Part shown: one piece after another, positions 826 through 15,138 of the stretch
Numbering within the stretch: position 1 is the stretch's first letter
Layout of the letters: each line of letters starts with the position of its first letter
NCBI GenBank assembly: GCA_017396865.1
Contig: JAFQKO010000127.1
Coordinates: 1-30,373 of the forward strand
DNA: 30,373 nucleotides
From: Clostridia bacterium
GTDB lineage: Bacteria; Bacillota_A; Clostridia; Oscillospirales; QAKW01
Direction: 5' to 3'
Program-made: the position numbers and the translations under genes
Notes under the pieces: model-generated
The model's input: only the letters and a program-made list of their open reading frames with translations
Told to the model about the DNA's origin: nothing
Database searches by the model: none

Positions 826-854
826 TTGACAAAGCGGATTTAGGGGGCTATAAT
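826..854 (+). promoter_or_regulatory. Promoter of the aromatic amino acid operon
   Basis: Perfect consensus -35 TTGACA at 826-831, a 17-bp spacer, and perfect -10 TATAAT at 849-854. Transcription would start near 861, about 27 bases before the leader peptide start. A perfect promoter fits an operon controlled mainly by termination after initiation. Confidence 0.92.
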
Positions 855-887
855 ATAAACATATTTTTTAAGGAAGGAAGCAGAAAT

Positions 888-959
888 ATGAAGTATTTAG
901 ACTATCGATTTTACTATTGCTCTACGGACTTTCTGTCTACTTCCAACTGCGAGCGCTGA
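888..959 (+). CDS. Tyr/Phe-rich leader peptide of the aro operon attenuator
   Basis: A 23-codon reading frame starts with ATG at 888, seven bases after a strong ribosome binding site (AAGGAAGGAAG, 870-880). The peptide begins MKYLDYRFYYC and stops at TGA 957-959. Of its first ten residues, four are Tyr (codons at 894, 903, 912, 915) and one is Phe (909); a second Phe codon is at 930. It has no Trp. The frame sits between a perfect promoter and a terminator-like hairpin, ahead of genes for Phe and Tyr synthesis. By analogy with pheL- and trpL-type leaders, its role is probably to stall ribosomes when charged tRNA-Tyr (or tRNA-Phe) is scarce. The peptide itself is unlikely to have a function. 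The role is inferred; the sequence features are seen directly. Confidence 0.8.
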   Translation: MKYLDYRFYYCSTDFLSTSNCER

Positions 960-1047
960 ATTTTATCAGGCGTTCGCCGTAGAATCAGGAAACAGAAAGC
1001 CCGCTATTCGACGTGCTCTGAAAGGAGCATTGAATTTGCGGGCTTTT
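921..1047 (+). promoter_or_regulatory. Transcription attenuator with alternative hairpins
   Basis: Pairings found by eye: (a) a protector stem, TCTACGG 921-927 with CCGTAGA 977-983, enclosing hairpin 950-959/966-976 (ten pairs, one bulge); (b) an antiterminator, CTTTCTGT 929-936 with ACAGAAAG 992-999, extendable to 926-927/1001-1002; (c) a terminator, AAAGCCCGC 996-1004 with GCGGGCTTT 1038-1046, with an inner TGCTC/GAGCA stem, running into a T-rich tail. (a) and (b) cross each other and (b) overlaps (c), so they are mutually exclusive. A ribosome stalled at Tyr codons 912-917 would mask about 927 and upstream. That breaks (a), frees 929-936 and favours (b), giving read-through. Normal translation, or none, favours (a) plus (c). 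Confidence 0.8.
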
Positions 1048-1075
1048 ATTATTTCCATATCAGGAGGAAATGAAA

Positions 1076-2269
1076 ATGGATATCAATCAAAAAATGTTAG
1101 GCCTTGGTAAGAAAAGCTCGATCATTCGTGAGATTTTTGAGTATAGTAAGCGCAGAAAGAGCGAGATCGGTGCTGAAAATGTCTTTGATTTCAGTATCGG
1201 AAATCCCAGCGTTCCTGCGCCCAACAGTATCAACGAAACGATGCTCCGCCTGCTGCAGGAGGGTGATCCCGTTCAGCTGCATGGCTATACCGCAGGCCCG
1301 GGCGATCCCGCGGTGCGGCAGAAACTGGCGGCCGGCATTAATCGCGAATTCAATGCTGATGCAAATTGGCAGTTGATGTATATGACCTGCGGTGCCGCCG
1401 CATCTCTGACCATTTCCTTGGCCGCAATTACCGCTTCTCCCGAGGATGAAGTGATTGTTTTTGCGCCTTTCTTCCCGGAGTATCGTGTTTTTGTGGAGCA
1501 TGCGGGCGCGAAGCTGGTTACTGTTCCTTGCCGTGAAGAGGATTTCCAGCTTGATTTTGATGCGTTGGAAAAGGCTATCAATCCCAATACTAAGGCGCTG
1601 ATCGTTAATTCTCCCAATAATCCCACCGGTGTTATCATTCCTGCAAAGGATATCGAACGCCTGGCAGCTCTTTTGGAGCAAAAGCAGGCAGAATACGGCC
1701 ATGTGATCTATCTGATTGCCGACGAACCCTACCGTAAACTCGTTTGGAACGGGGAAGAAGTGCCATATATACCGAATTATTATGGTAACTCTATCGTTTG
1801 CTACTCCTTCAGTAAGGCGGTTTCCCTGCCCGGTGAACGAATTGGCTATATCCTTGTTTCTTCTAAGATGAAGGATGCAGGCGACGTTTATGCGGCTGTT
1901 TGCGGTGCGGGCCGCGCCCTTGGCTTTGTATGCGCCCCCAGCCTGCTGCAATTTACCGTTGCAGAATGTGCCGACGATACCTCTGATTTCTCCATTTACC
2001 GCACCAACAGAGATCTTTTGCTGAAGGAATTGACACGGATCGGCTACGATGTGATCCAACCCGACGGCGCTTTTTATCTCTTTATGAAGGCGCTGGAGCC
2101 GGATGCCAACGCGTTCTATGAACGCGGTAAAAAGCATGAGCTGCTTTTGGTTCCCAGCGATTCCTTCGGTTGCCCCGGTTATGTTCGGATCGCCTATTGC
2201 GTCACCACCGAGCAGATCGAGCGCGCCATCCCTGCCTTTGAAAAACTCTACGAGGATTATCAAAAATGA
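1076..2269 (+). CDS. PLP-dependent aminotransferase class I/II, probable aromatic or prephenate aminotransferase
   Basis: A fold-type I, pyridoxal phosphate-dependent aminotransferase, cytoplasmic. As first gene of an operon for Phe and Tyr synthesis it probably transaminates phenylpyruvate and 4-hydroxyphenylpyruvate (or prephenate), but the sequence does not fix the substrate. Counting from the start chosen here, it shows NPTG near 182-185, ADEPY near 215-219 (Asp that binds the PLP ring nitrogen), the Schiff-base lysine in YSFSKAVSLPGERIGY (K247), and a C-terminal YVRIAYC whose Arg would bind the substrate carboxylate. Length (397 residues) is normal. An ATG at 1070 is also in frame, but AGGAGG at 1062-1067 lies only two bases from it and eight bases from the ATG at 1076, so 1076 is preferred. 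Its stop overlaps the pheA start (ATGA). Confidence 0.9.
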   Translation: MDINQKMLGLGKKSSIIREIFEYSKRRKSEIGAENVFDFSIGNPSVPAPNSINETMLRLLQEGDPVQLHGYTAGPGDPAVRQKLAAGINREFNADANWQLMYMTCGAAASLTISLAAITASPEDEVIVFAPFFPEYRVFVEHAGAKLVTVPCREEDFQLDFDALEKAINPNTKALIVNSPNNPTGVIIPAKDIERLAALLEQKQAEYGHVIYLIADEPYRKLVWNGEEVPYIPNYYGNSIVCYSFSKAVSLPGERIGYILVSSKMKDAGDVYAAVCGAGRALGFVCAPSLLQFTVAECADDTSDFSIYRTNRDLLLKELTRIGYDVIQPDGAFYLFMKALEPDANAFYERGKKHELLLVPSDSFGCPGYVRIAYCVTTEQIERAIPAFEKLYEDYQK

Positions 2270-3354
2270 GTAAATTAGACGAAGCGAGAAAAATCATTAA
2301 TGAAGTCGACCGCGAAATGGCAGACCTTTTCGTGAAACGGATGCGTGCCGCCGAGCTGGTCGCTGCTCATAAAATGGAGCGCGGGCTTCCTATTTTGGAC
2401 GCCGCCAGGGAAGAAGAGGTCGTTCGCAAAAATGCAGAGTACATCGAGGACAATGCTCTGCGGTCATATTATGTAAACTTCATTAAATATAACATGACCC
2501 TTTCCCGCCGCTATCAGCGCCGTTTGCTGGATGGAATGCGGGTTGCATACAGCGGTGTACCGGGTGCCTTTGCGGATATTGCAACCAAGAAGATTTTTCC
2601 GGATGCGACCCCTGTTCCTTGCAAGGATTTTAAGGCAGCTTATGAAGCGGTGGTCAGCGGCGAGTGTGATTGTGCGGTACTGCCCATCGAAAATAGCTAT
2701 GCCGGGGACGTTTCTCAGGTTATGGATCTGGGCTTTTTTGGTTCCTTGTTCATCAACGGCGTTTATGACATGGAAATCGTGCAAAACCTGGTCGGTGTTG
2801 AGGGGGCGACCCCTTGGGATGTGCGGGAGGTTATCAGTCATCCGCAGGCGTTGAGTCAGTGCGCCGAGTATATACGCGATCATGAGTTTATCACCCATGA
2901 GGCAACCAATACTGCGGTTGCTGCCCAAGACGTCGCAAAGGCGGGAAGAAAAGACTATGCGGCGATTGCCAGCGTGGAAACGGCAGAGCTTTACGGCTTA
3001 AAGGTGATTGAAAAGGGGATCAATGAGAGCAGTAATAATACTACGCGCTTTGCGGTGTTCTCCCGTTTTTCCAATCAATCCCCCAACGATAATTATTTCG
3101 TTATGAACTTTACCGTTAAAAATGAGGCGGGCGGCTTGAGCGAGGCGATTTCCGCTATCGGGAAGGCAGGCTTCAACTTGCGCGCACTGAAGAGCCGTCC
3201 CAATAAAGAACTGATTTGGGAATATTATTTCTTCGCTGAGGGTGAAGGAAATATCAATAGCGAGCAGGGCGAGCAGATGTTGGCTGAGCTTAAAAAGCAT
3301 TGCAGTAATCTGAAGGTGGTCGGCAGCTTTGCCCGCGAAATCAAACTTCGTTAA
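2266..3354 (+). CDS. pheA: Bifunctional chorismate mutase / prephenate dehydratase (P-protein)
   Basis: Converts chorismate to prephenate and then to phenylpyruvate, the committed route to Phe. Residues 1-88 form an AroQ-type chorismate mutase. Spacing against the E. coli enzyme places its active-site residues at R8, R25, K36, D45, E49 and about Q84, all present. Residues about 92-270 form the dehydratase, with VLPIENSYAG, SHPQALSQC and the catalytic TRF motif (260-262). A C-terminal ACT domain follows (about 275-362). In it the Phe-binding motifs known as GALV and ESRP read GGLS (289-292) and KSRP (309-312), so feedback control may differ. The gene starts in ATGA overlap with the aminotransferase and is followed directly by aroB, implying translational coupling. 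A domain order of mutase-dehydratase-ACT is usual; 362 residues is normal. Confidence 0.96.
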   Translation: MSKLDEARKIINEVDREMADLFVKRMRAAELVAAHKMERGLPILDAAREEEVVRKNAEYIEDNALRSYYVNFIKYNMTLSRRYQRRLLDGMRVAYSGVPGAFADIATKKIFPDATPVPCKDFKAAYEAVVSGECDCAVLPIENSYAGDVSQVMDLGFFGSLFINGVYDMEIVQNLVGVEGATPWDVREVISHPQALSQCAEYIRDHEFITHEATNTAVAAQDVAKAGRKDYAAIASVETAELYGLKVIEKGINESSNNTTRFAVFSRFSNQSPNDNYFVMNFTVKNEAGGLSEAISAIGKAGFNLRALKSRPNKELIWEYYFFAEGEGNINSEQGEQMLAELKKHCSNLKVVGSFAREIKLR

Positions 3355-3366
3355 GTGGTGAATCAT

Positions 3367-4374
3367 ATGGTTTTATCGATGAATCTTGGCGCTGAAAGCT
3401 ACGAAATCGTTGTGGAACGCGGTGCTTTGCAGCGGGCAGATCAATATTTTAAATTAGACCGTAAGGCGCTGATCGTTACCGATAGCGGTGTGCCTGAACA
3501 GTACGCCGAAACGGTCGCCTCCTGTTGCGGAGAACCTTATATCGAGGTGTTCGAGCAGGGTGAGCAAAATAAAAATATGGATACCTATCAGGCAATCCTC
3601 AGCCGTTTGGTGCAGGAGGGTTTTTCTCGCAGCGATTGCGTGGTTGCTGTTGGCGGGGGCGTAACCGGCGATATGGCGGGTTTTGCTGCCGCGTCCTATA
3701 TGCGCGGCATCGATTTCTATAACGTTCCGACCACTCTGCTTTCGCAGGTGGATTCCTCTATCGGCGGCAAAGTTGCAATCGATTTTAAAAGCTATAAAAA
3801 CATCGTGGGTGCGTTTTATCAGCCCAAGGGCGTCTTGATTGACCCTGAGGTGTTGAAAACTTTGCCCACCCGTCAGATCGCTAACGGTTTGGCTGAAGCG
3901 ATCAAGATGGCGGCGACCTGTGATCGGGCGCTGTTTGAACAGCTGGAGCGAGAAGATCCGCTTAATTGTATCGATGCGGTTATCATTGGTTCTTTGAAGA
4001 TCAAAAAAGACGTAGTGGAGCAGGACCCCAAGGAAAGGGGCTTGCGCCGCGTGCTGAATTTCGGGCATACGGCAGGCCATGCCATCGAAACGGTTTCCGG
4101 TCTTTCGGGGCTGTATCACGGCGAATGTGTTGCGCTGGGAATGTTGATTATGGCGGACGCAGAGCCGCGTGAGCGGATCCGCAAGGTGCTGGAAAAGGTC
4201 GGCCTTCCGACAGCGTATGCCTATGATCGCGATGCGGTAATTGCCGCCATGGCGATGGATAAAAAGGTTTCCGGCGGGGAGATCACGGTTGTTAATTTGC
4301 CGGCGATCGGGCAATTTAGCTTGGATAAGATTCCCCTTGCGGACCTGCAAAATCGAATGAAGGAAGTTTTATAA
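3367..4374 (+). CDS. aroB: 3-dehydroquinate synthase
   Basis: Second shikimate-pathway enzyme: converts DAHP to 3-dehydroquinate using NAD and a divalent metal, in the cytoplasm. The NAD-binding GGGVTGDMAGF motif, the PTTLLSQVDSSIGGK stretch, the metal-binding Glu in NGLAEAIK, and His residues in NFGHTAGHAIE and YHGECVALGM are all present. Length from the chosen start is 335 residues, slightly short but within the family. GTG codons directly after the pheA stop (3355, 3358) are also in frame. ATG 3367 is preferred because it gives a natural N-terminus (MVLSMNLGAESYEI) and a GGTGA-like site upstream, but this choice is uncertain. aroC begins one base after the stop. Confidence 0.95.
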   Translation: MVLSMNLGAESYEIVVERGALQRADQYFKLDRKALIVTDSGVPEQYAETVASCCGEPYIEVFEQGEQNKNMDTYQAILSRLVQEGFSRSDCVVAVGGGVTGDMAGFAAASYMRGIDFYNVPTTLLSQVDSSIGGKVAIDFKSYKNIVGAFYQPKGVLIDPEVLKTLPTRQIANGLAEAIKMAATCDRALFEQLEREDPLNCIDAVIIGSLKIKKDVVEQDPKERGLRRVLNFGHTAGHAIETVSGLSGLYHGECVALGMLIMADAEPRERIRKVLEKVGLPTAYAYDRDAVIAAMAMDKKVSGGEITVVNLPAIGQFSLDKIPLADLQNRMKEVL

Positions 4375-4375
4375 G

Positions 4376-5473
4376 ATGAAGAATACCTTCGGAAATCAAA
4401 TAACGTTAACCATCTTCGGCGAAAGCCACGGCAATGGGATCGGGGTTGTTTTGGATGGCCTCGCTCCGGGAATCAAGGTGGATGAACCCTTTGTTCGGGC
4501 GCAGCTTTCGAAGCGCCGCCCTTCCGGTAAGATTTCAACTGCTCGCCGTGAGCAGGATGAATATACCGTTGAAAGCGGTGTTTTTAACGGTTATACCACC
4601 GGTACGCCGCTTTGCATCGTGATCCCTAATACGGCGCAGCATTCCAAGGATTATTCTGCAACGCGCAGTAAGGCGCGGCCCGGCCACGCCGATTATACCG
4701 CCTATTGCAAATACCATGGCTTCGAGGATTATCGGGGCGGCGGTCATTTCAGCGGGCGTATAACCGCAGGCCTTGTAGCTGCCGGAGGGATTCTGATTCC
4801 TGCGCTGGAGAAAAAGGGGATCCGAATCGCAACCCATATGAGCCGTTGCGCCGGTGTGGATGATCGGTCGTTTGAAGATTTGGACGCTGATATCTTTGCG
4901 TTGAATCAGGCGGAATTCCCTGTCCTTTCAGAAGAATCTGCTCAAAAGATGCGGTTTGCCATTGAGGCTGCCGCAGAGCAGGGAGATAGCGTCGGCGGTG
5001 TGTTGGAAACGGTTATAACAGGCCTGCCTGCAGGCTTGGGTGAGCCGTGGTTTGATAGTGTGGAAAGTTTGCTGTCCCATGGTTTGTTCAGCATTCCCGC
5101 GGTTAAAGGCGTTGCCTTTGGTGATGGATTCGAGTTTGCCGACCAAAAGGGGAGCGAGGCCAACGATCCCTATCGCTACGAAGGGGATCGGGTCATTACC
5201 ACCAAGAACAGCAACGGCGGAATCAACGGCGGCATTACCAACGGGATGCCGATTCTGGTGAAAACAGCGATCAAGCCGACCCCGTCAATCTATAAAGAAC
5301 AAGAAACGGTCGATTTTATGAAGGGTGAGAATGCCAATTTGCAGATTGCGGGGCGCCATGATCCTTGTATCGTTCACCGCGCCCGCGTGGTGGTGGATAG
5401 TCTCTGCGCTTTGGTTGTAGCCGACTTGTTGTCCGTCCGTTTCGGGACCGATTACTTGGGGGAAGCGCAATGA
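4376..5473 (+). CDS. aroC: Chorismate synthase
   Basis: Last shikimate step: 1,4-elimination of phosphate from EPSP to give chorismate, needing reduced FMN. The N-terminus has the family signature FGESHGNGIG with the catalytic His at 18. RRPSGKISTARREQDE and RGGGHFSGRITA follow, and a C-terminal NSNGGINGGITNG and GRHDPCIVHRA segment completes the FMN and substrate site. At 365 residues it is a normal length. AAGGAAG just upstream inside the aroB end serves as ribosome binding site. Its stop overlaps the next start (ATGA at 5470), consistent with coupled translation. Confidence 0.97.
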   Translation: MKNTFGNQITLTIFGESHGNGIGVVLDGLAPGIKVDEPFVRAQLSKRRPSGKISTARREQDEYTVESGVFNGYTTGTPLCIVIPNTAQHSKDYSATRSKARPGHADYTAYCKYHGFEDYRGGGHFSGRITAGLVAAGGILIPALEKKGIRIATHMSRCAGVDDRSFEDLDADIFALNQAEFPVLSEESAQKMRFAIEAAAEQGDSVGGVLETVITGLPAGLGEPWFDSVESLLSHGLFSIPAVKGVAFGDGFEFADQKGSEANDPYRYEGDRVITTKNSNGGINGGITNGMPILVKTAIKPTPSIYKEQETVDFMKGENANLQIAGRHDPCIVHRARVVVDSLCALVVADLLSVRFGTDYLGEAQ

Positions 5474-6723
5474 AGTACGGCTGTATTGGCGAAAAATTAG
5501 GCCATAGCTTTTCTAAAGAGATCCATAATCGCTTGGCGGATTATCCGTATGAGTTGAAGGAACTCCGCCCGGAGGAGATCGACAGCTTCATGCGCAATCA
5601 TGATTTTTGCGCTATCAACGTGACGATTCCGTATAAGCAAACGGTGATTCCTTATTTGGATTCGATCAGCCCTCAGGCTGAGGCGATCGGTGCGGTGAAT
5701 ACCATCGTGAATCGCGGCGGTAAGCTTTATGGATATAATACCGACTTTTTTGGAATGCGTGCGCTGATTCTACGTGCGGGAATTGAAGTGGCGTCCAAAA
5801 AGGTTTTGATCCTCGGAAGCGGAGGAACCTCTAAGACCGCCCGCGCAGTCGCGGCAGATCTTAAGGCCCGTGAGGTGCTGGTTGTTTCCCGTACCGGGAA
5901 GGATGGCATCACCTATGAGCAGGCGTATGCCGACCATACAGATGCGGAGATCATCATTAATACGACCCCTTGCGGTATGTTTCCGAAGATCCATGCCGCT
6001 CCGATCGATTTGGATCGCTTTTCAAACGCAGAAGGGGTAATTGACGCAGTCTATAATCCCTTGCGTACAGAACTGATTCTGCAGGCGCAGGAAAGGAGAA
6101 TTCCTGCGGCGGGCGGTCTCTATATGTTGGTTGCGCAGGCTGCCTTTGCGGTCGAATTCTTTTTGGACACGAAGGTATCTTCGGAAAAAATCGAGTCGGT
6201 ATTTCGCGAGATTGATCGCTCGAAAAAGAATATTGTTTTGAGTGGAATGCCCGGCTGCGGAAAATCAACAGTCGGTCGGATTTTGAGTTCACGTCTGGGG
6301 ATGGCATTTTTCGATACCGATGCGTTGATAACGGAACGGGCAGGGAAGAGCCCTTCCGAGCTTATAACAGAGCGGGGAGAGGCTGCATTCCGTGATCTGG
6401 AAAGCCAAGTGATTGCCGAGCAGGTTGCCCCTATGAACGGGAGCGTGATCGCTACCGGCGGCGGTGCCATTCTGCGGGATGAAAACGTCAGGAACTTAAA
6501 AAAGAACGGCTATATTGTCTTTTTGGATCGTCCGCTGGATGAATTGGCAATGTCAGATGATCGTCCGCTTTCCAGCAACCGCACTTTGTTGGAACAGCGA
6601 TATCGCGAGCGTTATCAGCGTTATTGCGATACCGCCGATCAGATCATCTCGCCTGCCTCGGTTTTAGAGGAAAACTGCAAAAAGATTATTGAGGAAATGA
6701 ACCATGAAACTGCTTGTTATTAA
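5470..6723 (+). CDS. aroE-aroK: Fused shikimate dehydrogenase / shikimate kinase
   Basis: One 417-residue chain carries two successive pathway steps. Residues 1-248 are an AroE shikimate dehydrogenase (NADPH-dependent reduction of 3-dehydroshikimate): LGHSFSK substrate motif, catalytic K56 in NVTIPYK, D92 in YNTDFFG, the NADP loop GSGGTSKTA (117-125) and the C-terminal GGLYMLVAQA. Residues about 253-417 are an AroK shikimate kinase: Walker A GMPGCGKST (259-267), DTD (282-284), FRDLE with R308, GGGAI (330-334) and the lid DDRPL (363-367). All key residues of both enzymes are present, so both halves should be active. The order AroE then AroK matches their substrate-product relation. The 3' end overlaps aroQ by 20 bases. 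No frame break separates the domains, so this is a real fusion. Confidence 0.95.
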   Translation: MKYGCIGEKLGHSFSKEIHNRLADYPYELKELRPEEIDSFMRNHDFCAINVTIPYKQTVIPYLDSISPQAEAIGAVNTIVNRGGKLYGYNTDFFGMRALILRAGIEVASKKVLILGSGGTSKTARAVAADLKAREVLVVSRTGKDGITYEQAYADHTDAEIIINTTPCGMFPKIHAAPIDLDRFSNAEGVIDAVYNPLRTELILQAQERRIPAAGGLYMLVAQAAFAVEFFLDTKVSSEKIESVFREIDRSKKNIVLSGMPGCGKSTVGRILSSRLGMAFFDTDALITERAGKSPSELITERGEAAFRDLESQVIAEQVAPMNGSVIATGGGAILRDENVRNLKKNGYIVFLDRPLDELAMSDDRPLSSNRTLLEQRYRERYQRYCDTADQIISPASVLEENCKKIIEEMNHETACY

Positions 6724-7141
6724 CGGGCCTAATCTGAATATGCTGGGAATTCGTGAGCCGGGGATCTACGGCATAGAAACCTATGCGACCCTTTTGGAAA
6801 AGATTCAGAATTACTGTCAGGAAAAGGGGATTGAGGTGGAATGCTATCAATCCAACCATGAGGGCGACCTTGTGGATGCGATTCAGGGCGCTTACGGCGT
6901 TATGGATGGTATTGTGATTAATCCGGGCGCTTATACCCATACCAGTATTGCGATTTTGGACGCTGTAAAGGCAATAGGCTTGCCAACTGTCGAGGTACAT
7001 ATTTCGGACGTCAGCGCCCGTGAAGACTTCCGTCAGGTCAGTTATATCCGCGCTGCGTGTGTGAAAACCATCTGCGGTCACGGCACGAACGGATATTTGG
7101 AAGCAATCGACTTTTTAGCGGAGGAATACCATGCGGGTTAG
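6704..7141 (+). CDS. aroQ: 3-dehydroquinate dehydratase, type II
   Basis: Trans-dehydration of 3-dehydroquinate to 3-dehydroshikimate by the dodecameric type II enzyme. The 145-residue chain opens with INGPNLNMLGIREP followed by IYG (active-site Tyr region). It then shows QSNHEGDLVDAI, INPGAYTHTSIAILDA, and VEVHISDVSAREDFR with the catalytic His. This is the standard motif set and length. The start at 6704 lies inside the end of aroE-aroK, 10 bases after GAGG (6690-6693). The 3' end overlaps aroA by 11 bases. It fills the step between aroB and the fused aroE. Confidence 0.97.
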   Translation: MKLLVINGPNLNMLGIREPGIYGIETYATLLEKIQNYCQEKGIEVECYQSNHEGDLVDAIQGAYGVMDGIVINPGAYTHTSIAILDAVKAIGLPTVEVHISDVSAREDFRQVSYIRAACVKTICGHGTNGYLEAIDFLAEEYHAG

Positions 7142-8339
7142 AATTCAAAGCGGAAAAGCGAACGGCACCGTTCAGGCGCCGCCCTCCAAAAGCATGGCAC
7201 ACCGCTATTTGATAGCGGCGGCCTTGGCGGAAGGGAAAAGCCTGATCACCGGCGTGGAGTATTCCCAGGACATTTTGGCCACGATCGATTGCTTGCGCGC
7301 CCTCGGCGTGGAAATTCAATGCGAGGGAGATCGAGTGTGCGTAACCGGAGCGAAAGACCTTGTGCCCCGAGGAGAACTTCTCTGTCGAGAGAGCGGCAGT
7401 ACCCTGCGTTTTATGGTTCCTTTATGCTTGCTCTCGGGTAGACCCGCCACGCTGATGGGGAGCGAGCGCTTGATGGAGCGTCCTTTGACCGTTTATGAAA
7501 CGCTGTGTAGTGAACGGGGTTTTCGGTTCGAAAGAACCAACGGCGTGATCCACCTTTGCGGTACGCTGCAAAGCGGGCGTTATACGCTGGACGGCAGTAT
7601 CAGCAGTCAGTTTATAACCGGCATGATCCTTGCATTGCTGAAATGTGAGGGTGAGAGTACATTGCAGCTGACCGGAAAGGTAGAAAGTCGCTCTTATATC
7701 GATATGACACTTTCTGCTTTGCGGGAATTTGGCTTTGCGGTCGAATGGCAAGGAGAAAGCAGCCTGCTGATTTTCGGCGGCTGCGGAAAACCGCGCAATT
7801 TGGCGGTGGAAGGGGATTATTCCAACGCTGCCGCCCTTGAAGCGCTTAATTTTTTGGGCGGCGAGGTTAGGGTCTTGGGCTTGAAGCCCGATTCCTTGCA
7901 GGGAGATCGGGTCTATAGCGAGTATTTCTGTAAACTGAAACAAGGCTATGCAACGCTTTCTCTGGCAAACTGCCCCGATCTCGGCCCAATTTTGATGGCG
8001 GTAGCGGCCGCCTTGAACGGTGCACATCTGACCGATACTGCACGTCTTAAAATCAAAGAGAGCGATCGTGGTGCCGCTATGGCAGAGGAACTGCAAAAAT
8101 GCGGCGTTTCCGTTCGCTTGGAAGAAAACGATATCTATGTAGAAGGTGGCCGCTTGAAGCCGTCGAATGTTACGTTCAACAGCCATAACGACCATCGGAT
8201 CGTGATGTCGATGGCGGTATTGTGTACGTTATTTGGCGGCGAAATTTGCGGCGCTGAAGCGGTAGCAAAGAGTATGCCGACCTTTTTTGAAAAACTTTTG
8301 TTTCTTGGAATTGAGGTAAAGATCGATGAAACTGAATAA
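7131..8339 (+). CDS. aroA: 3-phosphoshikimate 1-carboxyvinyltransferase (EPSP synthase)
   Basis: Transfers the enolpyruvyl group of PEP to shikimate 3-phosphate. The N-terminal substrate loop PPSKSMAHR has K20, S21 and R25. The PEP-site glycine loop reads SGSTLRFM, where many enzymes read NAGTAMR. LMERPL, GDYSNAAALEAL, the catalytic Asp in CPDLGPILMAV, KIKESDR and NDHRIVMSMAV follow in the usual order. At 402 residues it is slightly shorter than the usual 420-450. A GCGGAGGAA ribosome binding site lies within the aroQ end. The 3' end overlaps tyrA by 14 bases. Confidence 0.95.
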   Translation: MRVRIQSGKANGTVQAPPSKSMAHRYLIAAALAEGKSLITGVEYSQDILATIDCLRALGVEIQCEGDRVCVTGAKDLVPRGELLCRESGSTLRFMVPLCLLSGRPATLMGSERLMERPLTVYETLCSERGFRFERTNGVIHLCGTLQSGRYTLDGSISSQFITGMILALLKCEGESTLQLTGKVESRSYIDMTLSALREFGFAVEWQGESSLLIFGGCGKPRNLAVEGDYSNAAALEALNFLGGEVRVLGLKPDSLQGDRVYSEYFCKLKQGYATLSLANCPDLGPILMAVAAALNGAHLTDTARLKIKESDRGAAMAEELQKCGVSVRLEENDIYVEGGRLKPSNVTFNSHNDHRIVMSMAVLCTLFGGEICGAEAVAKSMPTFFEKLLFLGIEVKIDETE

Positions 8340-9195
8340 AAATGCAAATACGAATATATTGATCGTCGGGTTGGGCTTGCTGGGCGGCAGCTATGCGATG
8401 GCGCTGAAAAAGAAAGGCTACCATGTGGAGGCGATCACCAAAGATCAGACCTCTGTGGACTATGCGCTGGAGCACGGCTTGATCGATTATGGTACGACGA
8501 AGGTAGAACCTTCGGTTGTGCAAAAGGCGGAATTGATCGTTTTTGCGCTGTATCCTCATGTATTGCTGGAATGGCTGAAGGAGAATCAGCAGTATTTCAG
8601 ACCCGGTACGGTGCTGACCGATGTAACCGGTGTTAAGTGCAGCACCATTTATGAAATCCAGAAACTTCTGCGGGAGGATGTGGAATATATCGCGGCCCAC
8701 CCGATGGCAGGTAAGGAAGTCTATGGCGTTGAAAACAGCGATTGCCGTATTTTCGAGGGTGCAAACTATATTGTGGTTCCCACCGAAAAGAACAGTGCGC
8801 TCGGCATCGCGCTTTGCGAAGAATTGGGGCGTGAGCTGGGCTTTAAGTCGATCTCCTGCCTTTCGCCGGAGGAGCATGATGAGATGATCGCCTATCTTTC
8901 GCAGTTGACCCATTGTATTGCGGTGGTGTTGATGTGCTGTCATGATAATCAACGGCTGGAGGCCTATACCGGCGACTCGTTCCGCGATCTTACCAGAATT
9001 GCTAAGATCAATGATGCCATGTGGAGCGAGCTGTTTATGATGAATAAGCCCGCTTTGCTGGAGCAGATGGATGTGTTTTTAGAGAAGTTTCAGCAGTTGC
9101 GCCGCTTTCTGGAAGAGGGCGACGTGGAGGAAATGCGAGCTATGATGCGGCTTTCCACCGAGCGCAGAAAGCGCTTTGATAAGAAAGAGGTATAA
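8326..9195 (+). CDS. tyrA: Prephenate dehydrogenase
   Basis: NAD(P)-dependent oxidative decarboxylation of prephenate to 4-hydroxyphenylpyruvate, the committed Tyr step. The Rossmann loop is GLGLLGGSYA (15-24). The catalytic His lies in AAHPMAGKEVYGVE (H125). The second His lies in SQLTHCIAVVL (H196), where many homologues read SQLPH. Length is 289 residues and there is no C-terminal ACT domain, so feedback control by Tyr through ACT, seen in some Firmicutes enzymes, is not expected. Lying in the same operon as pheA, it draws on the same prephenate pool. The start overlaps aroA; the last gene of the operon follows after four bases. Confidence 0.93.
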   Translation: MKLNKNANTNILIVGLGLLGGSYAMALKKKGYHVEAITKDQTSVDYALEHGLIDYGTTKVEPSVVQKAELIVFALYPHVLLEWLKENQQYFRPGTVLTDVTGVKCSTIYEIQKLLREDVEYIAAHPMAGKEVYGVENSDCRIFEGANYIVVPTEKNSALGIALCEELGRELGFKSISCLSPEEHDEMIAYLSQLTHCIAVVLMCCHDNQRLEAYTGDSFRDLTRIAKINDAMWSELFMMNKPALLEQMDVFLEKFQQLRRFLEEGDVEEMRAMMRLSTERRKRFDKKEV

Positions 9196-9199
9196 AACC

Positions 9200-10231
9200 A
9201 TGAGTATGAATTTTTTGAGAAAATTGCCGATCCCGATGGATATAAAAGAGCAATATCCGATGACCGAGCAGATGCAGCAGGTCAAGGATGCACGCGACAA
9301 TGAATTGCGTAAGATCTTTACCGGTGAAAGCAATCGCTTTGTTTTGGTGATCGGTCCGTGCTCTGCGGATAGTAAAGCTTCGGTGCTTGATTATATTGGT
9401 CGTCTGCGCCTTTTGGAGGATAAGGTCAAGGATAAGATTATGATCGTTCCCCGCATCTATACCAATAAGCCCCGCACGACCGGTGACGGCTATAAAGGAA
9501 TGCTTCATCAGCCTAATCCCGATGAGCGTCCCGATATGCTCAAAGGAATCGTTGCAATTCGTGATATCCATATGTGTGCGCTGGCTGATTATCAGTTCAG
9601 CTGCGCCGATGAAATGCTTTACCCCGATAATTACCGTTATCTTTCCGACCTGCTCTCCTACGTTGCAATCGGCGCGCGTTCTGTTGAAAACCAACAGCAT
9701 CGCCTGACCGCCAGCGGTCTGGATATCCCCGTTGGTATGAAGAATCCTACCGGTGGCGATCTTTCCATTATGATGAACTCTATCACCGCAGGTCAACATT
9801 CTCATACGTTTATTTATCGCGGATGGGAAGTGGTCAGCGACGGCAACCCCTATACCCATGCAATTCTGCGCGGCTATGTAGATAGCAGCGGCCGCTCCTT
9901 GCCCAACTATCATTATGAGGATCTGACCAAGCTTTGTGAACTTTACGGTCAAACGAACCTGGTTAATCCGGCGGTGATCATCGATACCAATCATGCCAAT
10001 TCCGGCAAGCAGTATCTGCAACAGATCCGTATTGCCAAGGACGTTTTGTATAGCTGCTCTCATAACGATGATATCCGCAAGATCGTAAAGGGCTTGATGA
10101 TTGAAAGCTATATTGAAGACGGCACCCAGAAGATCGGCGAGCATTGCTACGGTAAATCCATCACCGATCCCTGCCTCGGCTGGGAAAAAACCGAGCGGCT
10201 TGTTTTTGATATTGCCGAATCTCTTAAATAA
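9200..10231 (+). CDS. aroF: 3-deoxy-7-phosphoheptulonate (DAHP) synthase, AroFGH-like class I
   Basis: First step of the shikimate pathway: PEP plus erythrose 4-phosphate to DAHP. It resembles the E. coli AroF/G/H class: the metal-binding Cys in IGPCSADS, PRIYTNKPRTTGDGYKGM, GARSVENQQHR, VGMKNPTGG and the metal His in DTNHANSGK. The Glu in MIESYIEDGTQ and the Asp in KSITDPCLGWE complete the four metal ligands known for that class. It has no fused chorismate mutase. The 343 residues run from ATG 9200, which is preceded by AAAGAGG at 9184-9190. Upstream in-frame TTG 9176 lacks a comparable site. Which amino acid inhibits it cannot be read with confidence. It is the last gene before the operon terminator, an unusual place for the entry enzyme. 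Confidence 0.94.
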   Translation: MSMNFLRKLPIPMDIKEQYPMTEQMQQVKDARDNELRKIFTGESNRFVLVIGPCSADSKASVLDYIGRLRLLEDKVKDKIMIVPRIYTNKPRTTGDGYKGMLHQPNPDERPDMLKGIVAIRDIHMCALADYQFSCADEMLYPDNYRYLSDLLSYVAIGARSVENQQHRLTASGLDIPVGMKNPTGGDLSIMMNSITAGQHSHTFIYRGWEVVSDGNPYTHAILRGYVDSSGRSLPNYHYEDLTKLCELYGQTNLVNPAVIIDTNHANSGKQYLQQIRIAKDVLYSCSHNDDIRKIVKGLMIESYIEDGTQKIGEHCYGKSITDPCLGWEKTERLVFDIAESLK

Positions 10232-10268: not shown

Positions 10269-10282
10269 ACTATTTAAAGGGG

Positions 10283-10627
10283 CTATGAGTGAGCCTGTAA
10301 GCCGAGTTCTGTCGAGAACAGTCATCTATCTGGGACATCTGTTGCCAAATGCCTCAAGCCACGCTTTCGAGGTTCAATCGGGCGGGCCGCCCTCGCCTCT
10401 GTTGGTGTTGCATCGGATAAGGTTTACAGACCTCCTATGTCACCATAGGACGTGGTGAGCTCTTACCTCGCCTTTCCACCCTTGCCGCATCAAGGATGCG
10501 GCGGTATATCTCTGTTGCACTCTCTCGGGAGTCGCCTCCGGTGGGCGTTACCCACTATCCCGGCCCGTGATGCTCGGACTTTCCTCCGCGCCGCAAGCGA
10601 CACGGCGACTGTTCAGCCCACTCATAG
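10283..10627 (-). ncRNA. rnpB: RNase P RNA, bacterial type A
   Basis: The catalytic RNA of ribonuclease P, which trims tRNA 5' leaders. Read on the minus strand, the RNA begins CTATGAGTGGGCTGAACAG and ends in CAGGCTCACTCATAG, so the two ends form the P1 helix (nine perfect pairs, CTATGAGTG with CACTCATAG). Conserved blocks are visible: GAGGAAAGTCCGAGC near the 5' end, GTGGGTAACGCCCAC, the core GGTAAGAGCTCACCA, and near the 3' end GATAGATGACTGTTC and CAGAACTCGGCTTACAG. Length of about 345 is in the usual range. The layout looks like the ancestral A type rather than the Bacillus B type. The ends are set by the P1 pairing and may be off by a few bases. Confidence 0.95.
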
Positions 10628-10732: not shown

Positions 10733-12112
10733 ATGACTCATATAGAACGGTTTAAAAATGATATTTGCGGCAAAACTGTCGGTGTGGTGGGGATCGGTGT
10801 TTCCAATACGCCGATTATTACCATGCTTTGCCAATACGGGGTGCAGGTATTTGCATTTGATAAACGCACCGAGGAGCAGCTTGGTGAAACAGCTTCAACG
10901 TTGAAGGCTCTCGGCGTCAAGCTGTTTTGCGGCGAGGACTACATGGAGCATCTGCAGGGTGATTGGATCATTAAAACGCCCGGTATGCGGTTCGACCATC
11001 CTGCGCTGGAGGCGGCTCGGGCGAAGGGGAGCAGTATTACCAGTGAGATGGAGCTGTTTTTTGAGTATTGCCCTTGCAAGATCATTGCCGTTACCGGCAG
11101 CGACGGTAAAACAACAACGACCAGCTTGATCTATGAAATGCTGAAGCGTACCGAGCGCAAGGTGCATTTGGGCGGGAATATCGGGTTTCCGCTTTTCTGC
11201 CGTTTACATGAGATCGAAAAGGATGATTTGGTGGTGGCAGAGCTTTCAAGCTTCCAGCTTCATACGCTGCGAAAAAGTGCGCAGGTCAGCGTGGTGACCA
11301 ACCTTTCCCCGAATCATCTGGACGTGCATAAGGATATGGAGGAATATACCGAAGCAAAGGCGAATATCTTCCGTTATCAAACGACCGATGAGCTTTTAAT
11401 TCTCAATGCCGATAACGAAATTACTGCCTCCTTCGCATCGGAAGCCAAAGGTAGAGTCAGAATGTTTTCCTTCAAAGGGGACCACGGCAAGGAGGGCGCG
11501 TATTACAGCAACGACGCAATCTATTATCGCGATGGCAACGGTGCGGTTGCCAAGATTATAGACCGCAGTGAGCTGAAGCTGCGCGGTAATCATAATGTCG
11601 AAAACTTCATGGCGGCGCTGCTTGCCGCTGCCGATGATTGCTCGGTTGAGCAGATGCGTGCGGTTGCCGCGGAATTCGGCGGTGTGCGTCATCGGATGGA
11701 GTTTATCCGTTCGGTGCGCGGCGTGGACTTTTACAACGATTCGATCGGTTCTTCGCCTACGCGTACCATTGCAACGCTGCGCAGCTATGAAAAAAAGGTT
11801 CGCTTGATTGCGGGCGGTTATGATAAGAAAATTCCCTACGACGTGCTGGGTCCGGTTGTGGTCGAGAAGGTAGAAAAGCTTTATCTTTGCGGTGCGACAG
11901 CCGAAAAGATCCGCGATGCGGTTGCGGCAGCGGATGCAACCTTCCAGATGGCAATCTATCCGGATCTGAAAACGACGATTGAAGCGGCCTATCGGGAGTC
12001 GGCAGAGGGAGATATCGTTCTGCTCTCTCCTGCATCTGCAAGCTTCGACCAATTTAAAAACTTTGAGGAACGGGGCGATTATTTCGTCTCGGTGGTGAAT
12101 GAACTGCAATGA
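10733..12112 (+). CDS. murD: UDP-N-acetylmuramoylalanine--D-glutamate ligase
   Basis: Cytoplasmic Mur ligase that adds D-Glu to UDP-MurNAc-L-Ala using ATP in peptidoglycan synthesis. Domain 1 has a Rossmann-like VGVVGIGVSNT loop. Domain 2 has the ATP-binding TGSDGKTTTT. Further on are SPNHLDVH with the conserved His/Asp, RHRMEFI, and the C-terminal LSPASASFDQFKNFEERGDYF typical of MurD. Length of 459 residues is normal. GGAGG at 10719-10723 is nine bases from ATG 10733 but only three from the in-frame ATG 10727, so 10733 is preferred. The gene stands alone here rather than in a division and cell wall cluster, and its stop overlaps the start of an M42 peptidase (ATGA). That links it in expression to three aminopeptidases. 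Confidence 0.94.
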   Translation: MTHIERFKNDICGKTVGVVGIGVSNTPIITMLCQYGVQVFAFDKRTEEQLGETASTLKALGVKLFCGEDYMEHLQGDWIIKTPGMRFDHPALEAARAKGSSITSEMELFFEYCPCKIIAVTGSDGKTTTTSLIYEMLKRTERKVHLGGNIGFPLFCRLHEIEKDDLVVAELSSFQLHTLRKSAQVSVVTNLSPNHLDVHKDMEEYTEAKANIFRYQTTDELLILNADNEITASFASEAKGRVRMFSFKGDHGKEGAYYSNDAIYYRDGNGAVAKIIDRSELKLRGNHNVENFMAALLAAADDCSVEQMRAVAAEFGGVRHRMEFIRSVRGVDFYNDSIGSSPTRTIATLRSYEKKVRLIAGGYDKKIPYDVLGPVVVEKVEKLYLCGATAEKIRDAVAAADATFQMAIYPDLKTTIEAAYRESAEGDIVLLSPASASFDQFKNFEERGDYFVSVVNELQ

Positions 12113-13146
12113 AAAATCTTCAGAACTATTTGTTTGAATTATGCGGAGAACACCTGCCTTCCGGCTTTGAATGGGGCTCCCATGCGGTAAAAAACCTGAT
12201 GGCACCGCTGGTGGACGAATGCTATACGGATGCGTCCGGAAGCATTATCGGTGTTCGCAAGGCTGTATTACCGAACGCAAAAAAGATTATGCTGGATGCT
12301 CATTTAGATGAAATCGGCTTGATTGTTACCAAAATTGACGACAACGGTTTTGTGCATTTTACAAATCTGGCGGGTTTTTCACCTGTCAGCCTGCCGGCTA
12401 CGATGGTAACGGTGAAGGGCACCCGTCCGTTGCCCGGTATTGTGGCAACTCTGCCGCCCCATTTGCTGACTGCCGAGGAGCAAAAGCAAACGATTCCCAT
12501 GAAAAAACTGGTGATTGATATCGGTTATTCCGCCGAAAAGGCGCGGCTTTTGGTTAAAGTGGGCGATCCCATTATTTTGCGCCAAAGTTGCGCAGATTTG
12601 ATGAATAACCGCGTATGCGGCAAGGCGCTGGATAACCGTGCGGGTGTGGCGGTTCTTTTAGATGTGTTGTATAATCTGCGTAAGATGCCGTTGCCTGTTG
12701 ATCTCTATACCGTTTTTTCTGCGGGGGAGGAATTCAGCGGCTTTGGCGCACGCCATGCCGCCAATGCACTTGCGCCCGATGAGGCGGTCGTTGTGGACGT
12801 AACGCACGGGGCTTCGCCCAATACGCCGAAGGAAAAAGCATTTGCCTTGGGAAGCGGCGCTGTGATCGGTATGGCTCCGATTTTGAACGGTGACGTAACC
12901 AATCGCTTGCTTTCACTTTGCGAAAAATATCAAATCGTTCATGCTCGAGAGGCCATGAGCGGCAGAACCGGAACAAACAGCGATTGTATTGCGGCAAGTC
13001 AGCGCGGTGTACCCACCGGCTTGGTTTCCATTCCGCTGCGGTATATGCATAGTGGCTGTGAGGTGGTTGATTTGGCGGATATGAAGGAATGCTCCCGCTT
13101 GATTACCCAATATATCAATCAGGGAGGTGCGATTCGCTATGAATAA
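12109..13146 (+). CDS. M42 family metallopeptidase, copy 1
   Basis: A cytoplasmic co-catalytic metal aminopeptidase of the M42 (glutamyl/deblocking aminopeptidase, FrvX/YsdC-like) family; such enzymes form large tetrahedral particles that degrade peptides. The full ligand set is visible: DAHLDEIG (H65, D67), ALDNRAG, FSAGEEFSG (catalytic and metal Glu), VVVDVTHG (metal Asp) and YMHSGCEV (metal His). An AERAKE-like insertion is not evident. At 345 residues its length is standard. It begins in ATGA overlap with murD and overlaps the next paralogue by eight bases. Its N-terminal region (ELCGEHLPSGFEWG) departs from the usual GVSGxE motif kept better by the other two copies, so it is the most divergent there. 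Confidence 0.9.
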   Translation: MKNLQNYLFELCGEHLPSGFEWGSHAVKNLMAPLVDECYTDASGSIIGVRKAVLPNAKKIMLDAHLDEIGLIVTKIDDNGFVHFTNLAGFSPVSLPATMVTVKGTRPLPGIVATLPPHLLTAEEQKQTIPMKKLVIDIGYSAEKARLLVKVGDPIILRQSCADLMNNRVCGKALDNRAGVAVLLDVLYNLRKMPLPVDLYTVFSAGEEFSGFGARHAANALAPDEAVVVDVTHGASPNTPKEKAFALGSGAVIGMAPILNGDVTNRLLSLCEKYQIVHAREAMSGRTGTNSDCIAASQRGVPTGLVSIPLRYMHSGCEVVDLADMKECSRLITQYINQGGAIRYE

Positions 13147-14149
13147 ACAACTGAGTTATTTAACTTCTCTTTTTGGTGCGTCAGGCAGCGAGGGCGACGT
13201 TCGTCAAGCTGTCATTAATGAGATTCGTCCTTATTGCGAGAGCGTTGAGGTGGATCGCTTGGGAAACGTAATTGCTTTTAAGCGCGGAACGATGGAGCCG
13301 CCGTTCACCTTGATGTTCTCTGCCCATATGGATGAAGTGGCGTTGATGGTCACCCATATCGATGGAGATGGCTATCTGAAGTTTGATTCGGTCGGCGGAA
13401 TCGACCCTCGAATCTTGCCCGGAAAGCACGTGGCGGTCGGCCGCCGCAAGCTTCACGGTGTAATCGGCGTGTTGGCGCCGCATTTGGCTAAGGATGACGA
13501 AAAAGCACCGAAGATGGAGGAGTTGTTCATCGATATCGGCGCTAAGGATAAAGAAGATGCGGAAAAGATGGTTTCGGTCGGTGATTTGATCGGCTTTGAA
13601 ACAATCTATCAGGAGTTTGGCGAAGACCTGGTTCGCGCCAAGGCGCTGGATGACCGCGCAGGCTGTTACGTCCTGATTGAGATGATCAAGCATACGATTC
13701 CGTTCGATGCATACTTTGTTTTTAGTGTAATGGAGGAGATCGGATGCATCGGCGCAAGAACGAGTGCTTTTGGCGTTCGCCCGCAGTACGCTGTCGTTGT
13801 TGAAGGAACTACGGCGGGTGATATTCATACGGATAAGGATAAATCCTCCGTATGTGAGCTCGGTAAAGGCCCGGTTATATCCTTTATGGATCGCAGCGCG
13901 ATCTATGACCGTGAATTCTATCGCCTGGCGATGAACGCCGCCGCAGAAATGGGAATTCCCGTTCAAACGAAAGAGGCGGTTTCGGGCGGCAATGAAAGCG
14001 GAACGATTCAGGGTGCTCTGAGCGGCTGCAAGGTGTTGGCCATTTCGGTTCCTTGCCGCTATATCCATTCGCCGGTCAGCGTTGCTTCGCTGCATGACAT
14101 CGATAATACGCTGAGGCTTGCTTTGGCGGTCTTTAATAAACTGATATAG
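13139..14149 (+). CDS. M42 family metallopeptidase, copy 2
   Basis: Second of three adjacent M42 aminopeptidase paralogues (336 residues). It shows GASGSEGDVR at the N-terminus, FSAHMDEVAL, ALDDRAGCYV, FSVMEEIGCIGAR and RYIHSPVS. Where copies 1 and 3 have VDVT or IDVT, this one has VVVEGTTAGD, so the metal-ligand position appears to be Glu rather than Asp. That form occurs in some M42 members but may shift metal or substrate preference. AGGGAGG at 13121-13127 supports ATG 13139; GTG 13127 upstream overlaps that site and is unlikely. The substrate is not predictable. Confidence 0.9.
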   Translation: MNKQLSYLTSLFGASGSEGDVRQAVINEIRPYCESVEVDRLGNVIAFKRGTMEPPFTLMFSAHMDEVALMVTHIDGDGYLKFDSVGGIDPRILPGKHVAVGRRKLHGVIGVLAPHLAKDDEKAPKMEELFIDIGAKDKEDAEKMVSVGDLIGFETIYQEFGEDLVRAKALDDRAGCYVLIEMIKHTIPFDAYFVFSVMEEIGCIGARTSAFGVRPQYAVVVEGTTAGDIHTDKDKSSVCELGKGPVISFMDRSAIYDREFYRLAMNAAAEMGIPVQTKEAVSGGNESGTIQGALSGCKVLAISVPCRYIHSPVSVASLHDIDNTLRLALAVFNKLI

Positions 14150-14163
14150 GAGAACGTTACGAT

Positions 14164-15138
14164 ATGATCAATACAATTCGTGATTTAGTCAAATGCAATG
14201 GCGTTTCAGGCAATGAAAGTGCTGTTGCGGCATATATTAAAAATCAAATCCTTTCCTGCGCGGATAAGGTTTATGAGGATGCGCTGGGAAACCTTGTTGC
14301 CGTACGAAAGGGAAGCGGCCCCAAGGTGATGCTGATGGCGCATATGGATGAGATCGGCTTGGTGGCAACCTTCGTTGATGAAAAAGGCTTTGTCCGCGTT
14401 TCGGACGTGGGCTACGTAAATCCCAAACAGACAATCGGCCATCCCGTTCAGTTCGAGAACGGTGTGATGGGCGTGTTTGCGTGCGGCGACGAGGATAAGA
14501 AAGAAATGAAGCTTTCCGACTGCTACGTTGATATCGGAGCGGAATCTCGCGAAGAAGCGTTGAGACGGATCGAAATCGGTATGACGGCGTCGTTTGTCAG
14601 CGAGACCTTTGAGACGGGCTCTAAAATTGTTTCCAATGCCTTGGATAATCGAGTGGGGTGCTACTGCTTGATTGAAACGATGCGGCGTTTAAAGAATCCA
14701 ACCTGTGAAGTATACGCCGTTTTTACCGTTCAGGAAGAGGTTGGCTTGCGCGGTGCCCGTGTTTCCGGCTTTGATATTGAGCCCGAGGTGGCGCTGGCAA
14801 TCGACGTAACGCTGAGCGGGGACCACCCCGACGGAGCGGATACCTCTGCCGCTCTCGGAAAGGGAACTGCAATTAAGGTGCGGGATCGCTCGGCAATTTG
14901 TTCCGGAAACGTCGTGGAGGATCTGGAGAATCTTGCTGTTCGAAAGGGGATTGCCTACCAAAGAGATGTGCTTTCGGCGGGCGGTACCGATATCGGCAGC
15001 GTTCAGCTTTTAGGTAAGGGCGTGCAGGTTGGAGGAGTCAGTGTTCCGATCCGCTACTGTCATTCTGCAATTGAGATGGCGGATCGCCGCGACGTAGAAG
15101 CAACGATCGGATTGTTGACGGCTTACTTGGAAAAATAA
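14164..15138 (+). CDS. M42 family metallopeptidase, copy 3
   Basis: Third M42 aminopeptidase paralogue, 324 residues. Motifs: NGVSGNESAV, LMAHMDEIGLVATF, NALDNRVGCYCLIE, FTVQEEVGLRGAR, LAIDVTLSGDHPD and RYCHSAIEMADRRD. All expected metal ligands (His, Asp, Glu, Asp, His) and the catalytic Glu are present, so it is probably active. It is the closest of the three to the classical family pattern. TAGGAGAACG (14147-14156) forms the ribosome binding site across the end of copy 2. No terminator is seen after it; the smc promoter lies directly downstream. Confidence 0.92.
   Translation: MINTIRDLVKCNGVSGNESAVAAYIKNQILSCADKVYEDALGNLVAVRKGSGPKVMLMAHMDEIGLVATFVDEKGFVRVSDVGYVNPKQTIGHPVQFENGVMGVFACGDEDKKEMKLSDCYVDIGAESREEALRRIEIGMTASFVSETFETGSKIVSNALDNRVGCYCLIETMRRLKNPTCEVYAVFTVQEEVGLRGARVSGFDIEPEVALAIDVTLSGDHPDGADTSAALGKGTAIKVRDRSAICSGNVVEDLENLAVRKGIAYQRDVLSAGGTDIGSVQLLGKGVQVGGVSVPIRYCHSAIEMADRRDVEATIGLLTAYLEK

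Follow-up and report, generated by a model that had tools for sequence, protein, structure and literature searches.

A predicted Tyr/Phe leader-peptide attenuator ahead of the shikimate operon in gut Clostridia, with the leader's Shine-Dalgarno region as a covarying pairing strand

How is an operon that carries the genes of a whole aromatic pathway regulated in a clade of gut bacteria? The window, the entire stretch of 30,373 nucleotides from a Clostridia bacterium that was analyzed here, encodes nine consecutive genes, identified with Pfam as those for a class I aminotransferase, chorismate mutase-prephenate dehydratase, dehydroquinate synthase, chorismate synthase, a fused shikimate dehydrogenase-kinase, dehydroquinase II, EPSP synthase, prephenate dehydrogenase and DAHP synthase. 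By the established pathway, these make up a full route to Phe and Tyr. NCBIfam searches on three operon proteins placed the aminotransferase and the DAHP synthase above a cut-off and the prephenate dehydrogenase below its cut-offs. From gene overlap and spacing, the nine genes are presumably co-transcribed. A preliminary description had proposed that a Tyr/Phe leader-peptide attenuator of a Clostridia-type genome lies ahead of them. Our analysis agrees in the main, although the strands are assigned differently: positions 826-1056 probably (at about 0.77) act as a ribosome-mediated attenuator of transcription, responding to charged tRNA-Tyr and tRNA-Phe and governing the shikimate-Phe-Tyr operon through a four-strand scheme in which the leader's Shine-Dalgarno (SD) region is strand 1. 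The features of the locus are as follows.

826 to 854, plus strand: promoter TTGACA-17-TATAAT, matching at 12/12 positions, unique in the window and recurring upstream of relatives' leaders.
872 to 886, plus strand: strand 1, the SD region of the leader ORF, with pairs 872-876/940-944 and 880-886/930-936 and with covariation.
888 to 959, plus strand: leader peptide ORF, MKYLDYRFYYCSTDFLSTSNCER, with in-frame aromatic enrichment among relatives.
909 to 917, plus strand: Phe-Tyr-Tyr control codons, preceded by a CGA Arg codon at 906-908, with aromatic runs in relatives.
921 to 983, plus strand: the protector 921-927/977-983 of the preliminary description, formable in the window and unconserved.
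925 to 944, plus strand: strand 2 (A), the 5' strand of the antiterminator and also the target of strand 1, within the leader ORF.
946 to 980, plus strand: stop-codon hairpin (946-959/966-980) in the antiterminator loop, with covariation.
988 to 1003, plus strand: strand 3 (B), the 3' strand of the antiterminator, overlapping the 5' arm of the terminator, with covariation.
995 to 1056, plus strand: intrinsic terminator with arms 995-1004/1038-1047 and a T-rich tail, from folding and scan.
1076 to 10231, plus strand: operon of PLP aminotransferase, pheA (CM+PDT), aroB, aroC, aroE-aroK fusion, aroQ, aroA, prephenate dehydrogenase and DAHP synthase, from Pfam.

A motif scan of the window confirmed the promoter at 826-854 as perfect; no other exact TTGACA-17-TATAAT match occurs in the 30 kb, where 0.01 would be expected by chance. 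The ORF at 888-959 has the 23 codons previously ascribed to it, ends with TGA at 957-959 and is preceded by an SD sequence at 872-877. Its first ten codons include four for Tyr and one for Phe, and at least four Tyr within codons 2-10 would arise with a probability of 1.4e-4 given the codon frequencies of the window. Five stretches of the region were folded, and all were more stable than shuffles (z -3.8 to -5.8). Both the terminator and the antiterminator 929-936/992-999 were recovered, the latter extended in the window by 925-927/1001-1003 and 941-944/988-991. Across leaders, CGA encodes the Arg ahead of Phe or Tyr in 20 of 21 cases, which come from related leaders and are non-independent; CGA accounts for 30 of the 456 Arg codons across the window's genes. 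Elsewhere in the window, a class A RNase P RNA adjoins the end of the aromatic operon (10282-10624, minus strand), and three adjacent ORFs at 12109-15138, presumably aminopeptidase-like, appear alike by eye.

The window's leader was compared with 49 from relatives, in sets of 26 and 24 that together make 50 leaders. A candidate was accepted on reading when its short ORF contained an aromatic run and, with few exceptions, when an aromatic gene followed; the aromatic ORF found in all 50 is thus partly so by construction. Five loci encode a close aminotransferase, all labelled 'MAG: Clostridia bacterium' and from ruminant colon or rectum, and the four that extend far enough upstream all carry the same kind of leader ahead of the aminotransferase gene. 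Among 26 aminotransferase loci, nine have a leader upstream, one is cut and 16 have none that was accepted, counting L026 and L031, whose weak short-ORF candidates were passed over by eye. Four of these 16 come from genomes (G009, G011, G013 and G014) that carry the leader before pheA. Rfam gave no match at 18 of the 26 loci, including the leader-bearing L018 and L024.

Wider searches used covariance models built from 7 and then 24 leaders, with base pairs modelled in the terminator only. Within the order of genome G001, matches at E<=0.01 occurred in 35 of 295 genomes; the 30 loci that were read comprised 23 leaders and 7 chance matches, and five weak matches (G216, G255, G256, G272 and G285) fall outside the read loci. 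The class-level search matched 10 of 391 genomes and yielded 7 leaders, the family of G004 11 of 120 (10 leaders), and the family of G071 17 of 63 (every one a leader, with one chance second match in addition). At the phylum level, 3 of 398 genomes matched, corresponding to two already known leaders and one chance match. Model matches set aside on reading as chance were L056, L059, L060, L061, L066, L067 and L068, and further L076, L077, L078, L088 and L106. The filters in these searches were strict, which makes the leader counts lower bounds, and on this sequence survey the element looks confined to part of the class.

A promoter matching at 10/12 positions or better lies upstream of 26/26 leaders in the first set and 21/24 in the second. 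An intrinsic terminator was located between the leader ORF and the first gene in 26/26 and 24/24 by a permissive scan, with the stem start of L057 set by hand afterwards. By eye, an ATTC..TATGC-like stretch recurs in the terminator loop of the alignment (1005-1016 in the window, and in many relatives). The first gene after the leader is the aminotransferase in 20 cases, pheA in 18, aroF in 11 and a sodium:solute symporter in one; at L083 the gap between leader and pheA is longer. The first gene is thus aromatic in 49/50 leaders and of three different kinds, so the element tracks the pathway rather than one gene. The leader frame with aromatic codons, the terminator and a matching antiterminator, on which the proposal of a Tyr/Phe attenuator had been based, recur in 50 leaders, 49 of them before aromatic genes. 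The symporter (L095:1500-3176, genome G782) follows a Tyr/Phe leader and scores above the Pfam SSF cut-off; all of its NCBIfam matches lie below their cut-offs, and the protein is incomplete at the end of the locus. Its position suggests a candidate aromatic amino acid importer.

Several observations bear on translation of the short ORF. Over the first 12 codons of the 50 leaders, Phe and Tyr make up 54% of the residues in frame versus 15% and 17% in the other frames, a contrast inflated by the selection of leaders partly on aromatic content. Only one Trp occurs among their 1067 residues. Among 29 pairs of close leaders, codons up to the end of the aromatic cluster show 45 single-base differences, and 23 of these are synonymous, against 13% expected. 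When all pairs with equal cluster position are considered, the single-base differences at Phe/Tyr codons comprise 262 synonymous and 360 non-synonymous ones, counts that take in Phe-Tyr exchanges and distant pairs. A translated-looking short ORF rich in codons for the regulated amino acid, as expected ahead of an attenuated operon, is present in all 50 leaders.

To identify the conserved pairings, the duplex energy of cognate strands was compared with that of strands swapped across species, using 20,000 permutations (floor 5e-5). L064 and L018, which both have leaders, were left out of these tests, as was L098, whose peptide is identical to that of L097. The antiterminator (A with B) was more stable in cognate than in swapped form among the 26 leaders (-17.8 vs -14.3 kcal/mol, p=5e-5) and among the 24 (-18.0 vs -15.3, p=5e-5). 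Two pairings absent from the preliminary description behaved in the same way. The SD region paired with A at -17.1 vs -12.1 kcal/mol in the first set and -17.5 vs -12.8 kcal/mol in the second, and the stop-codon hairpin at -9.6 vs -6.2 and -7.3 vs -5.1, with p=5e-5 in every case. Among 25 representatives below 60% identity, the z values were -5.9 for A with B, -7.8 for the SD region with A and -6.0 for the stop-codon hairpin. Three control pairings were flat: upstream DNA with A, leader codons with A and the SD region with B gave p=0.39, 0.44 and 0.47 in the 26 leaders and p=0.63, 0.37 and 0.70 in the 24, and p ranged from 0.39 to 0.82 in the representatives. The permutation p-values ignore ancestry, but the controls share that ancestry and stay flat. 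The second set was retrieved by a model trained on the first, and is independent of it in sequence, not in finding method. A strand 1 drawn from the leader codons, which marks the trp/phe subtype and is dispensable for attenuators as a kind, found no support (p 0.44, 0.37 and 0.56). The mutually exclusive antiterminator that characterizes an attenuator is thus backed by covariation.

The upstream partner of strand 2 was also sought by a scan that began 45 nt ahead of the start codon and ended at strand 2 itself. The SD zone holds the best partner in 49/50 leaders, with a median z of -3.25 vs shuffles; pairing of SD with A is poor in L049 (-7.0, the worst of the 26 in its row). At least five nucleotides of A are common to pairings 1:2 and 2:3 in 44/50 leaders, with 11 in the window and fewer than five in the other six leaders, and where such nucleotides are shared the two pairings are mutually exclusive. 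On sequence comparison, the leader region is real, and it is both conserved and coherent in function. Sequence and covariation bear out the leader with its aromatic codons, pairings 1:2 and 2:3 and the stop-codon hairpin; the terminator is borne out by scan.

From these elements we infer the following order of events. Strand 1 is the SD region, strand 2 is A, which lies in the ORF after the Phe/Tyr codons, strand 3 is B and strand 4 is the 3' arm of the terminator. When Tyr or Phe is short, the ribosome would stall between strands 1 and 2 and hold them apart, leaving A free to pair with B, which would give read-through. With ample Tyr and Phe, the ribosome would pass over A, and the vacated SD region would then capture it; with A held in this way, B would be available to the terminator and transcription would end. 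If no ribosome loads, 1:2 would be expected to form first, again with termination. Pairing 1:2 would also cover the leader's ribosome-binding site and limit further translation of the leader. The stall geometry put forward earlier fits this scheme. Between the last aromatic codon and the first base of the antiterminator lie 3-10 nt. If the leading edge of the ribosome is taken to be 12 nt beyond the first A-site base, 49/49 leaders have two or more aromatic codons at which a stall would leave A free. L075, whose aromatic cluster was set by rule on an early Phe pair, was kept in the pairing tests and left out of this count. A fuller version of the scheme, which we offer only tentatively, holds that the ribosome-binding site of the leader itself serves as anti-antiterminator, that about one ribosome reads each transcript in a one-shot switch, that strand 2 is translated and that the finishing ribosome opens the stop-codon hairpin. 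If this were true, one RNA strand would pick between hiding the sensor peptide's start site and opening up the operon.

Equilibrium folding of the 50 leaders with a masked ribosome, on transcripts ending in strand 3, did not reproduce the logic of the switch. Without a ribosome, 2:3 prevailed over 1:2 in 34/50. A ribosome on the aromatic cluster left 2:3 favoured in 23/50 or 36/50, depending on the stall site, counts that arise because the model allows 1:2 to close around the ribosome. With the ribosome at the stop codon, where 1:2 is expected, 2:3 was ahead in 39/50 (mean expected pairs 5.5 vs 2.0), and a ribosome on A nearly abolished both pairings (mean expected pairs 1.2 and 0.5). In full-length RNA folded without the SD region, the terminator dominated in most leaders and states. 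Because equilibrium folds miss the switch, the roles of 1:2 would depend on timing and sterics.

These folds lend some weight to a variant in which the same attenuator operates and 1:2 mainly shuts off leader translation, as small-ORF autoregulation, rather than deciding termination: 1:2 falls below 2:3 at equilibrium in the 34 and 39 leaders just given, and in the window it covers the SD sequence itself. The overlap of 1:2 with 2:3 by at least five nucleotides of A in 44/50 leaders means, however, that the two are not independent, and we consider this variant unlikely. The scheme of the preliminary description, with 921-927/977-983 as the anti-antiterminator, fares far worse. That duplex can form in the window (-11.4 kcal/mol), but a fold of 918-1003 prefers the antiterminator, and no covariation was seen in the first set (-5.16 vs -5.18, p=0.53), the second set (p=0.12), the 25 representatives (z -0.1, p=0.47) or all 50 leaders (p=0.21); the conserved partner of the A strand is the SD region. 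The comparison of relatives that had been suggested as a check upheld the leader frame, the aromatic codons and 929-936/992-999, and gave no covariation for the protector, whose role as anti-antiterminator we regard as very improbable.

A nascent-chain arrest peptide that senses free ligand, not tRNA charging, could account for the Arg-Phe-Tyr-Tyr conserved in some leaders and for its near-fixed CGA codon (20/21 of the Arg codons before Phe or Tyr). Other leaders replace RFYY with FYYYYYYF, FYFYFYYF, YFYYF and similar runs, so that aromatic richness alone is common to them, and we give an arrest peptide a slim chance. The slightest weight of all goes to a riboswitch or T-box at work with the ORF incidental. 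T-box matches do occur in 20/20 leader-bearing genomes examined, 19 with one over the cut-off, and the lineage thus uses both devices. At the locus itself, Rfam is silent: neither the T-box (RF00230) nor any other family matched the region at the gathering threshold or at E<=1 in 800-1080. The frame-specific aromatic enrichment and the excess of synonymous differences between close leaders (23/45, 0.13 expected) also speak against an incidental ORF.

The enterobacterial attenuators (trpL, pheL, pheM, thrL, ivbL, ilvL, leuL and hisL) combine a short ORF that has many codons for the regulated amino acid with an alternative antiterminator and terminator and a biosynthetic or synthetase operon downstream, and the Clostridia leader resembles them in each of these respects. 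An automated scan of the eight E. coli K-12 leaders placed the best upstream partner of strand 2 in the ORF for thrL, trpL, pheL, pheM and ivbL, with none of the five better than shuffles (z -0.7 to 0.1). For leuL and ilvL the partner spans the SD and the ORF (z -3.0 and -4.3), and hisL was mis-called by the scan. In trpL, pheL and pheM, strand 2 starts after the stop codon; in the window it lies inside the ORF, and the partner in the Clostridia leaders falls in the SD zone (49/50). The contrast with E. coli in the position of strand 1 is a hint only. In older E. coli work, the ribosome-binding site of trpL was reportedly able to pair with a distal part of the leader.

Leader-peptide attenuation itself is already known, also in Firmicutes. 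His leader attenuators are predicted in the Bacillus cereus group, Eubacteriales and Erysipelotrichales (PMC9413887); these would be ribosome-mediated, as is proposed for the Clostridia leader, and differ in their His codons and his operons. The Listeria Rli60 ilv-leu attenuator was tested by mutation, with start-codon and RBS mutants lowering ilvD transcription (PMC5864092). It is ribosome-mediated and from a Firmicute, with branched-chain codons instead, and a figure legend marks the RBS in both drawn structures, so RBS pairing may occur there as well (PMC5864092). A related case is the uORFC-13-1 motif upstream of aroF, reported in 24 examples from Acholeplasma and environmental sequences only (PMC8632094). 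It shares a promoter, an RBS, a uORF with at least one Phe codon, a terminator and a shikimate gene with the Clostridia leader. It differs in preceding aroF only, and the section describing it mentions neither Tyr codons nor SD pairing, but does mention another conserved base-paired substructure (PMC8632094); the two are compared here at the level of text. Merino predicted attenuators before tyrA operons and Phe-Tyr supraoperons, Firmicutes included (PMC1173090), which in the text covered are listed by operon and, unlike the Clostridia leader, without description of a leader peptide. Further reports concern Actinobacteria (PMC1262725) and pausing at E. coli leaders (PMC9291695). The earlier impression of novelty thus has to be narrowed, given the published leader attenuators of Firmicutes (PMC9413887, PMC5864092) and the Acholeplasma Phe uORF (PMC8632094), and it stands insofar as no Tyr/Phe leader in Clostridia, and no strand 1 from the SD region, appeared among the matches listed, in partial texts and with subscription papers thinly covered. 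Within the reach of these searches, two things are new: a leader for Tyr and Phe in this clade, and a covarying strand 1 supplied by the SD region.

What kind of organism carries such a leader? Among 20 leader-bearing genomes, 19 gave no match for trpE and 18 none for trpA, with one (G007) having a trpA match and no trpE match; both searches were positive in all 14 control genomes, and MAG incompleteness could explain some of the gaps. By this test, the leader-bearing organisms mostly appear to be without Trp synthesis, which would explain why a Phe/Tyr sensor could govern the common trunk. The sole genome of the 20 with a trpE match (G013:C50:7554-9224) carries, some 140 bases ahead of that match, a T-box match that scores below the cut-off; here two devices stand side by side in one genome. 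Leader-peptide attenuation of the classical kind, usually a proteobacterial story, would act on the entire shikimate pathway in gut Clostridia that carry T-boxes as well. The roles of the strands would be divided differently there, with the control codons merely stalling the ribosome and the ribosome-binding site doing the protecting.
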